DNA of 64,000 nt, taken from assembly GCF_000691505.1 (NCBI RefSeq), contig NZ_JMIP02000017.1:186001-250000 (forward strand). The letters run 5' to 3'. Under the pieces are notes generated by a model that saw nothing but the letters and a program-made list of their open reading frames with translations, did no database searches and was not told the origin of the DNA. Both the position numbers and the translations under genes were made by a program. This document shows positions 28,347 to 31,695 of this stretch, piece by piece (the stretch's first letter is position 1; every line of letters begins with the position of its first letter). Origin of the DNA: Halostagnicola sp. A56 (lineage in GTDB: Archaea > Halobacteriota > Halobacteria > Halobacteriales > Natrialbaceae).

Positions 28347-29577
28347 ATGTCTTCACCAGACAACGGCTCTGATACCAGTCAGGGCGGTCGAGTTCTTCCA
28401 GGGCACGTTAGATTCCACTGAAGAAATCGAAACTGCTCGAGTCTTCGATACGACGCTCCGGGACGGCGAACAGTCCCCTGGAACGTCGTTCTCTTACGAC
28501 GACAAGCGCCAGATCGCCTCGATTTTGGACGAGATGGGCACCCACGTGATCGAAGCTGGGTTCCCCGTCAACTCCGACGCGGAGTTCGAGGCAGTCCGGG
28601 ATATTGCTTCGGCAACCAACACGACGACCTGCGGGTTAGCCCGCGTCGTCGATGCGGATATCGAAGCAGCGTTAGATTCCGGCGTCGAGATGGTTCACGT
28701 CTTCGTGAGCACAAGCGACGTCCAGATCGAAGATTCGATGCACGCCACACGAGACCAGGTCGTACAGAACGCAGTCGAGTCGGTCGAGCGCGTCGTCGAC
28801 GCGGGAGCAACCTGTATGTTCTCCCCGATGGATGCGACGCGAACCGACGAGGCGTTCCTGATCGACGTGATCGAAGCGGTCACCGAGGCAGGAACCGACT
28901 GGATCAACATCCCCGACACCTGCGGCGTCGCCACGCCCGGCCGATTCCAGGCGATGATCGAAAAGGTGTGTGCACACACCGACGCGCGCGTCGACGTCCA
29001 CACCCACGACGACTTCGGACTGGCGACCGCGAACGCGATCGCCGGCATCGAAGCCGGCGCCGATCAGGCCCAGGTATCGGTCAACTCGATCGGAGAGCGG
29101 GCGGGCAACGCCGCCTACGAGGAGTTCGTCATGGCCGTCGAATCCCTCTACCAGGTCGATACCGGTATCGACACCACGCGGATCACGGAGCTCTCTGACA
29201 TCGTCGAGGACAAAAGCGGCATGGAGACGCCGGGCAACAAGCCGGTCGTCGGCGACAACGCCTTCTCCCACGAGAGCGGCATCCACGCCGCGGGCGTGAT
29301 CGAAAACTCCGATACGTTCGAACCGGGCGTCATGACCCCCGAAATGGTCGGAGCCGAACGCAAACTGGTCATGGGCAAACACACCGGCACGCACTCCGTC
29401 CGCGAGCGCCTGCACGAACGCGGGTTCGATCCCACCGACGAGCAGGTTCGCGCGGTTACCCGACGGGTCAAAGACTACGGCGCCGAAAAGCGCCGCGTCA
29501 CCGTCAGCGACCTAGAGCGCTTCGCCGAAGAGGCCGACGTCGAGCGCACACAGGAAAAAGAGGAGGTGCGCGCCTAG
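28347..29577 (+). CDS. leuA: 2-isopropylmalate synthase (frameshift near 5' end)
   Basis: LeuA condenses 2-oxoisovalerate with acetyl-CoA, the first step of leucine synthesis; the family also includes citramalate and homocitrate synthases. The TIM-barrel domain shows ARVFDTTLRDGEQSPGTSF (metal-binding Asp), HVFVSTSDVQIEDSMHATRD, VDVHTHDDFGLATANAIAG and SVNSIGERAGNAAYEE, followed by a C-terminal subdomain (GIHAAGVIENSDTFEP). The short length of about 400 aa, without a full regulatory domain, is usual in haloarchaea. The ATG 28347 frame runs to about 28390 and the conserved protein continues in the next frame (FFQGTLDSTEEIE), so one base is missing. The first in-frame ATG at 28525 would lose the catalytic motif. 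Confidence 0.88.
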
Positions 29578-29650: not shown

Positions 29651-29660
29651 GAGTTATGAT
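29651..29660 (+). promoter_or_regulatory. TATA-like box ahead of the ilvB leader
   Basis: GAGTTATGAT at 29651-29660, with a TATA-like TTATGA core, sits about 30 bp before ATG 29686 and about 225 bp before the ilvB start. Transcription from here would begin close to 29683 and give ilvB a leader of about 200 nt. Confidence 0.5.
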
Positions 29661-29685
29661 AGTCGAGAGTGCAAGACTCGAGGTA

Positions 29686-29766
29686 ATGAGGCCACGCCCA
29701 CAGCGGTCGGCCGACGCGGCCAAGACCAGCGTGTTCGCTCCGTTCGCTATTGTAGGGGCCGTCTAG
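29686..29766 (+). CDS. Putative 26-codon leader ORF with overlapping hairpin, upstream of ilvB
   Basis: ATG 29686 opens a frame of 26 codons ending at TAG 29764-29766. It begins MRPRPQRSADAAKTSV and ends with a hydrophobic tail FAPFAIVGAV that includes Val and Ile codons. The TATA-like box at 29651-29660 would make it a leaderless ORF. A hairpin GGGGC (29755-29759)/GCCCC (29766-29770) overlaps its last codons and stop. ilvB, 115 bp downstream, has its own ribosome binding site (ggagg at 29871-29875), as expected for an internal gene. Whether it is translated or regulatory is unproven. Confidence 0.4.
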   Translation: MRPRPQRSADAAKTSVFAPFAIVGAV

Positions 29767-29881
29767 CCCCTCACACACCTCCTTCTCGTTCCGGCCTCGC
29801 ATCGATCACACAGCCACCAGTCAGCCAGCAGACACCACAGCATATGACAACTGATCGCCACAAAACGGCGGGAGGATTCCA

Positions 29882-31695
29882 ATGAGCGAACGCGCGACCT
29901 CGGTCACGTCACCGACCGACACGGACGAACCAGGGGAACAGCAGGCGGACGAATCGACGGCGTCGGACGCGTCGACGCCACCGGCGGAGGGGGAGACCGG
30001 ACAAGAGCCCGTCACGACGGGTGCACAGTCGGTCATCCGAGCCCTCGAGAACGCGGGCGTCGAGTACGCCTTCGGCGTGCAAGGCGGCGCTATCATGCCC
30101 GTCTACGACGCGCTCTACGATTCGGACATCTACCACGTGACGATGGCCCACGAACAGGGAGCCGCCCACGCGGCGGACGCCTACGGCATCGTCTCGGGCG
30201 AACCGGGCATCTGCCTGGCGACCTCGGGGCCGGGGGCGACGAACCTCGTCACGGGGATCGCAGACGCGACATGGATTCGGATCCGATGGTCGCGCTGACC
30301 GGACAGGTCGCGCGGGATTTCGTCGGCAACGATGCGTTCCAGGAGACCGATACGACCGGCGTCACGACGCCGGTGACCAAGGACAACACGTTCGCGAGCG
30401 ATCCGGACACGGTCGGCTCGGACGTGAGTGAAGCGTTTGCGCTCGCACGTGAGGGGCGACCGGGACCGACCCTGGTCGACCTCCCGAAGGACGTGTCGAA
30501 CGCGGACACCGACTGCGAACCCGACGAGCCGAAGGTTCCGGACACGTACGAAGTCCAAGAGCGCGCCGACCCCGAAATCGTCGAACAGGCCGCGCGACGG
30601 ATCGAGAACTCGAGCAAGCCCGCCTTGCTGCTTGGCGGCGGCGTCATCAAGGGAGAGGCCAGCGAGGCCTGTCGCGAGTTCGCGATCGAACACGAGATCC
30701 CGGTCATCACGACGATGCCCGGCATCGGCTCGTTCCCGGAGGATCACGAACTGTCGATGGAGATGGCCGGCATGCACGGCACCGGCTACGCCAACATGGC
30801 GGTCACCCACTGTGACACCTTAATCGGCATCGGAACGCGCTTCGACGACCGCCTGACCGGCGGCATCGAGACGTTTGCGCCCGACGCCGAACTGATCCAC
30901 GTCGACATCGATCCGGCTGAAATCTCGAAGAACATCCACGCGGACTATCCGCTGATCGGCGACGCCGAAACGGTCGTCACCCAACTGGCCGAGGAGATAG
31001 AGACCTCGCCGCAGGCGACGAAGTGGCGAGCCCAGTGCCAGCAGTGGAAGTCCGACTACTCGATGGCCTACGACGCTCCCGAGGACCGGCCGATCCAGCC
31101 TGAGTTCGTCGTCGAGGCCCTAGACGAGGCGACCAGCGACCGCGCGATCGTGACCACCGGCGTCGGCCAACACCAGATGTGGGCCTGCCAGTACTGGACC
31201 TACACCGAACCGCGGACGTGGGTCTCGAGTCACGGGCTGGGTGCGATGGGATACGGCCTGCCCTCGGCGATCGGCGCGCGTATCGCCGCCGACGACGACC
31301 AGGAGGTCGTCTGCATCGACGGCGACGGCTCGTTCCTGATGACCCTGCAGGGACTCTCGGTCGCGGTTCGCGAAAACCTCGACATCACCGTCGTCGTGCT
31401 CAACAACGAATATATCGGCATGGTTCGACAGTGGCAGGACGCCTTCTTCGAGGGCCGTCACTCCGCCTCCGAGTACAACTGGATGCCCGAGTTCGACAAG
31501 CTCGCCGAAGCGTTCGGCGCGAGAGGGTTCCGGATCGACGAGTACGACGAGGTCGCAGACACCATCGAGGAGGCGCTTTCCTACGACGGGCCGTCCGTTA
31601 TCGACGCGCATATCGATCCGCAGGCAAACGTTTACCCGATGGTGCCAAGCGGCGGCGACAACGGCCAGTTCGCGCTGGCGGAGGACCAGCTATGA
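29882..31695 (+). CDS. ilvB: Acetolactate synthase large subunit (internal frameshift)
   Basis: IlvB is the TPP- and FAD-dependent enzyme that makes acetolactate or acetohydroxybutyrate for valine, leucine and isoleucine. A Ser/Thr/Glu-rich extension of about 45 residues precedes the PYR domain ([16 protein letters not shown], catalytic Glu in [15 protein letters not shown]). The frame breaks at about 30268-30271 after [14 protein letters not shown] and resumes one frame over with [17 protein letters not shown]. The central domain follows, and the TPP domain has [17 protein letters not shown] ... LNNEYIGM. All motifs are intact apart from one missing base, so error in the sequence is likely. 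The stop overlaps the ilvN start by 4 bp. Confidence 0.9.

Follow-up and report, generated by a model that had tools for sequence, protein, structure and literature searches.

How is the operon ilvBNC-leuCD of Halostagnicola sp. A56 controlled, and what part does the short reading frame ahead of it play? We addressed this question in a 64-kb window of the genome (the whole stretch of 64,000 nucleotides that was analysed, numbered from its first letter) and in related genomes. An initial annotation had described a 26-codon ORF behind a TATA-like box, a stop codon placed within a hairpin at 29755-29770, and a separate ribosome binding site for ilvB. All of these coordinates were reproduced.

Layout of the ilvB leader

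The features of the leader in the window are as follows.

29654-29661, + strand: TATA-like promoter box TTATGATA, 32 nt before the ATG at 29686
29686-29766, + strand: ORF1, 26 codons, putative leaderless leader peptide MRPRPQRSADAAKTSVFAPFAIVGAV (from frame and stop conservation)
29749-29754, + strand: candidate sensor codons ATT (Ile) and GTA (Val), both of low usage in the genome (from codon counts in 127 ilvB leaders)
29754-29771, + strand: hairpin AGGGGC-CGTCTA-GCCCCT, with the TAG of ORF1 at the loop/3' arm
29771-29787, + strand: G-free, pyrimidine-rich tract directly 3' of the hairpin (from base composition in 97 leaders)
29844-29885, + strand: ORF2, a second mini-ORF whose TGA overlaps the ilvB ATG as ATGA (from ATG frame counts)
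29871-29875, + strand: GGAGG, a Shine-Dalgarno-like site for ilvB, within ORF2
29882-31695, + strand: ilvB, encoding the large subunit of acetolactate synthase, at the head of the operon, with a frame split near 30268

ORF1 ends with a TAG at 29764-29766, inside the hairpin. The hairpin core, GGGGC-CGTCTA-GCCCC, spans 29755-29770, and the stem reaches 6 bp once the A29754-U29771 pair is added. The ilvB ATG at 29882 lies 115 nt past the ORF1 stop. The initial annotation had not included the ATT-GTA codons, the G-free tract, the overlap of ORF2 with the ilvB start or the copy of the leader at valS.

The hairpin region (46 nt) was more stable than shuffled sequence (z = -2.5), and the fold of the whole leader showed no extra stability over its shuffles (z = 0.1). 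The 64-kb window contains 17 mini-ORFs behind a promoter-like box, of which the ilvB leader alone has its stop covered by a hairpin of 5 bp or more; over 390 kb of the A56 genome, three of 63 such mini-ORFs do. An Rfam search of the leader region gave no significant match among 4227 families, ilvB/leucine leaders, T-boxes and riboswitches included.

The ilvB gene is split in the window into two frames, 29882-30298 and 30271-31695, and is uninterrupted in the relative L002 (573 codons within its locus). The draft assembly is 84% complete, and the split may be an error of assembly; otherwise the gene is broken.

Conservation across the order Halobacteriales

The initial annotation had made its reading depend on conservation in relatives. 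We compared 127 unique ilvB leaders from the order, and the ORF1-hairpin arrangement upstream of ilvB was conserved across nearly the whole of Halobacteriales, with start, frame and stop-in-hairpin all kept. The pattern ATYGTAGGGGC..GCCCC was present in 90 of the 155 genomes of the order, and the reversed-pattern control gave approximately zero. Of the genomes lacking the exact pattern, 30 were sampled, and in 26 of these a relaxed form of the leader stood directly before ilvB. A further set of 48 named haloarchaeal genomes was chosen by IlvB homology and not by motif. The leader with its stop inside the hairpin was detected in 43 of them, and in two more the motif was present but the stop fell immediately past the hairpin. 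Nothing similar was seen upstream of ilvB in Halorutilus and one other of these genomes, and the element was absent from families f9 and f11.

In 204 genomes of the phylum from outside the order, the motif gave seven scattered matches, and these were unlike the leader. When the exact hairpin was followed to other genes in 25 genomes, only the copies at ilvB and valS were leaders; the remaining loci examined were gene ends or had no convincing ORF. One genome (G255) carried two copies of ATTGTAGGGGCGAGTGTGAGCCCC (L113 and L114) with neither ilvB nor valS detected downstream. These copies are possibly a mobile element.

Evidence for translation of ORF1, and choice of codons

No in-frame stop occurred in the 60 nt before GTA in any of the 127 ilvB leaders, a weak test because the DNA is GC-rich (27 of 127 leaders had stops in frame +1 and 0 of 127 in frame +2). 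The positions of ATGs were stronger evidence: 45-115 nt upstream of GTA, 173 ATGs shared the ORF1 frame and 20 did not. The distance from box to ATG had its mode at 32 nt (69 of 127 leaders) and was 31-33 nt in 92 of 127. As this spacing fits leaderless transcripts, the transcript very probably starts at or just before the ATG at 29686. The stem-loop enclosed the stop in 121 of 127 ilvB leaders and in all 23 valS leaders, although loop lengths vary, and TAG, TAA and TGA all occurred as ORF1 stops among the ilvB leaders.

The codon preceding GTA in the 127 ilvB leaders was ATT in 94, ATC in 30, and GTC, GTA or CTC in one each, so that the residue was Ile, Val or Leu without exception. Within the ilvB coding sequences, GTA makes up 0.6% of Val codons and ATT 7% of Ile codons; usage of both in the leaders far exceeds that in the genome. 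The invariance of GTA is partly a selection effect, since most leaders were gathered with patterns containing GTA; the samples chosen by IlvB homology nonetheless showed that GTA is general. The G and T of GTA were unpaired in approximately half of the ilvB leaders and in 22 of 23 valS leaders, and in these the codon, not the stem, therefore explains its retention. The most invariant bases were GGGGC, where the codon and hairpin constraints are inseparable.

Some leaders of family f17, those starting with ATGCGAC(A/G)GTC (L053-L065, L144, L146), had an extra stem reaching from the start codon to just before the II-V codons. This stem covaries (CGACAG/CTGTCG and CGACGG/CCGTCG), and a long inserted hairpin was often present inside ORF1.

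Sister leaders at valS, pheS and trpS

A second copy of the leader was found upstream of valS (valyl-tRNA synthetase) in many Natrialbaceae. Its peptides end V-F-V-G-A-x before the stop, or V-R-V-G-A-x in family f7, and contain Val codons only, Ile being absent. The hairpin of the valS leader of A56 (L200) is compensated, reading GGGCC-GTCCTA-GGCCC. A strongly conserved block, CCCCGTTTCGACGGATGTATTGTCGCCGACCAGCATTCACCGAGCAACGA, was also observed approximately 10-60 nt after the valS hairpin (L031-L047); as its ATG falls in varying frames, it looks more like a signal in RNA or DNA than like a reading frame.

Differential RNA-seq of H. volcanii has placed a 23-aa uORF before trpS and a 26-aa uORF before pheS (Babski et al. 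2016, PMC4983044 Table 2). We therefore searched for leaders at these two genes and found them. The pheS leaders (L341-L362; L347 in the A56 genome) are Phe-rich and end GFGFFFAR, with the stop in or beside the hairpin in 18 of 25 genomes; an example is the hairpin GCCCGG-TAA-CCGGGC of L348. They had been missed by our automatic scan because their promoter box is TTTTG-like, and were revealed by reading of the sequence. The trpS leaders contain Trp-Arg-Trp (WRW) and were found in 10 of 13 cases and on three named plasmids. Their WRW codons sit in the loop of a longer, covarying stem, and they precede a second trpS that is partly plasmid-borne (L366-L376, L414-L416). The trpS leader of Haloferax mediterranei is 23 aa long. 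A 25-aa trpS leader used as a tblastn query against plasmids gave no matches, and the loci were found with TrpS itself as the query. Among 91 control mini-ORFs, a Phe-rich tail occurred in none and W.W in one.

The amino acid matched the gene in all four cases, that is, ilvB, valS, pheS and trpS. No such leader was found at ileS by the scan or at the four leuS loci containing the gene start, nor was a Trp-rich leader found at trpC, and the leader logic is therefore not applied to every pathway gene. The 390 kb of the A56 genome yielded no further convincing cognate leaders.

Sequences between the hairpin and ilvB

The tract behind the hairpin contained 4% G; of 97 non-redundant leaders, 82 had no more than one G there vs. 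seven of 97 in a control stretch. Five consecutive pyrimidines occurred in 80 of 97 leaders vs. two of 97 in the control, and the tract was pyrimidine-rich around +12 to +16. A conserved oligo-T/U-run was not found after the hairpin: four T were present in only nine of 97 leaders, runs too short for a conserved oligo-T terminator of the standard archaeal kind. The hairpin was the sole structure conserved order-wide (pair probability 0.99 in RNAalifold, 97 divergent leaders). No antiterminator was found in the same 97 leaders, in which no other pair exceeded a probability of 0.1 in the region from -45 to +60 around GTA.

Between the hairpin and ilvB, 108 ATGs were in the ORF2 frame vs. six and 14 in the other frames; for the first ATG after the hairpin, the counts were 92 vs. 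two and eight. The ORF2 stop overlapped the gene start as ATGA or GTGA in 95 leaders having an ATG-started ORF2, and ORF2 and ilvB thus share the stop/start overlap of coupled ORF pairs. ORF2 is mostly 9-45 codons long, with no known product. A frame like ORF2 was present at valS too, where many end in RRRP.RAVRA. As for sequestration of the ribosome binding site of the erm type, in most leaders 50-300 nt separated the hairpin from the gene start, which does not fit such a design.

Proposed mechanism and alternatives

The ORF, its start spacing, its frame, the stop in the hairpin and the pathway codons are conserved and recur at valS, pheS and trpS, which is the signature of leader-peptide control. 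Judged from these sequence comparisons, the ilvB 5' leader is probably a ribosome-mediated amino-acid switch. That ORF1 is translated, with its amino acid matched to the gene, appears well supported; the level of control, transcription or translation, is what we infer in the following.

When charged tRNA-Ile or tRNA-Val is scarce, a ribosome whose A site has reached ATT or GTA would wait. A ribosome footprint covers roughly a dozen nucleotides downstream of the A site, and that of the waiting ribosome would mask the following GGGGC, the 5' arm, so that the hairpin is blocked and the operon is on. With ample amino acids, the ribosome would terminate quickly and leave, and the hairpin would form beside the G-free pyrimidine tract. 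Hairpin and tract together would most likely cause a stop or pause of transcription, assisted by a factor such as FttA and not brought about by a simple oligo-T terminator. Transcription through ORF2 and ilvBNC-leuCD would then be confined to starved cells, and ORF2, ending on the ilvB start codon, would probably deliver ribosomes to ilvB by termination-reinitiation. The hairpin would be occluded directly by the ribosome, without an antiterminator of the bacterial type. The same design would sense Val at valS, Phe at pheS and Trp at trpS, in the last case with the Trp codons in the loop of the longer stem.

FttA is an archaeal factor thought to act on RNA that is not followed by ribosomes (PMC11616081, PMC12548453), and haloarchaea couple transcription physically to translation (PMC8576121). 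We tentatively propose, at slightly less than an even chance, that the leaders at ilvB, valS, pheS and trpS form a general attenuator class of Halobacteriales, in which ribosome pausing at cognate codons directly blocks a stop-overlapping hairpin and so controls termination of the FttA type. This would be the first archaeal translation-coupled attenuation.

Control could instead be translational, a possible but rather doubtful reading: the full transcript would always be made, and the position of the ribosome on ORF1 would decide over ORF2 and then, by reinitiation, over ilvB. The overlap of ORF2 with the gene start, conserved at ilvB and also occurring at valS, agrees with this, as does the lack of a conserved T-run terminator, and H. 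volcanii is an established case of termination-reinitiation (reviewed in PMC12548453). However, the distance of the hairpin from the gene start and the lack of conserved pairing in the region from -45 to +60 speak against it, and it gives the G-free tract no obvious role. An arrest peptide, whose nascent ...IVGA would sense free Val or Ile in the ribosome and stall it as TnaC does for tryptophan, is very unlikely. V-G-A before the stop is nearly constant and the stop position is conserved, but what follows GTA in the peptide differs between leaders (GA, GAx, GV, or on to GALSPLI) while the GGGG nucleotides stay, rare codons are preferred to their synonyms, and the sister leaders have unrelated peptides with cognate codons. 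Least probable is a protein- or ligand-binding RNA or DNA hairpin with an incidental ORF, or a functional microprotein, for which the almost invariant hairpin core and the similar look of Rfam-type elements could be cited, but the frame is kept with the stop in frame despite varying loops and stop types, the promoter-to-ATG spacing and the cognate amino acids at four genes are retained, and the peptide body of ORF1 is not conserved.

Relation to known systems

Leader-peptide attenuation is a textbook bacterial mechanism, and we know of no archaeal case. The putative amino-acid switch shares with the bacterial attenuators (trp, his, pheA, ilvBN/ilvGMEDA, and the Corynebacterium ilvB-II motif, PMC10272879) a short ORF at the transcript start, codons for the pathway product, a hairpin at the ORF end, and a position before biosynthesis and tRNA-synthetase genes. 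Unlike them, it has a leaderless ORF, a stop within the only conserved hairpin, and an ORF2 overlapping the gene start. The attenuation-type control suggested by the initial annotation holds as an analogy of function, its conserved layout being joined by cognate codons at four genes. The antiterminator and U-tract of the bacterial systems were not found to be conserved, and because these two defining parts fail, we do not class the leader as a bacterial-type attenuator. In attenuation of the pyrBI and tnaC type, the ribosome itself masks the terminator or loading site. The haloarchaeal leader shares the principle that ribosome position exposes or hides a signal, and would use cognate sense codons, not UTP or free tryptophan.

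Two descriptions from haloarchaea come close. The uORFs in long 5'-UTRs of H. volcanii (PMC4983044) precede the same trpS and pheS genes; ilvB and valS are unlisted, and function, codon bias and hairpin are not noted there. Haloarchaeal ATGA termination-reinitiation (Huber et al. 2019, cited in PMC12548453) shares the TGA overlapping the ilvB or valS start, whereas the upstream partner here is a short ORF without known product. The view that no comparable system had been described in haloarchaea agreed with both Rfam and the open-access literature searched, in which no description of archaeal leader-peptide attenuation was found.

Since the element occurs order-wide and has cognate codons at four unrelated genes, it makes translation-controlled transcription of archaeal amino-acid genes directly testable with reporters in Haloferax volcanii. 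It would imply tight coupling of transcription and translation and efficient leaderless translation of mini-ORFs, and the leader could offer a natural tRNA-charging sensor for haloarchaeal genetics.

The start region of leuA

Directly upstream lies leuA, whose start region (28349-28421 of the window) contains a conserved leaderless ATG that is out of frame with the LeuA body. We compared relatives of this region (L004-L020, L068, L303, L439-L457). In all 29 distinct loci, drawn from several families, the ATG lies 37, 40, 43, 49 or 55 nt (1 mod 3) before (V/I)EFFQGTLDS, and its frame stops 26-35 nt later. No ATG, GTG or TTG in the LeuA frame was present within 66 nt in 25 of the 29 loci. From these frames, a +1 frameshift appears to be required for leuA throughout the order. 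The junction, CAGGGGGGTCGAGTTCTTCC, resembles the bacterial RF2 site, with an SD-like G run before CTT.
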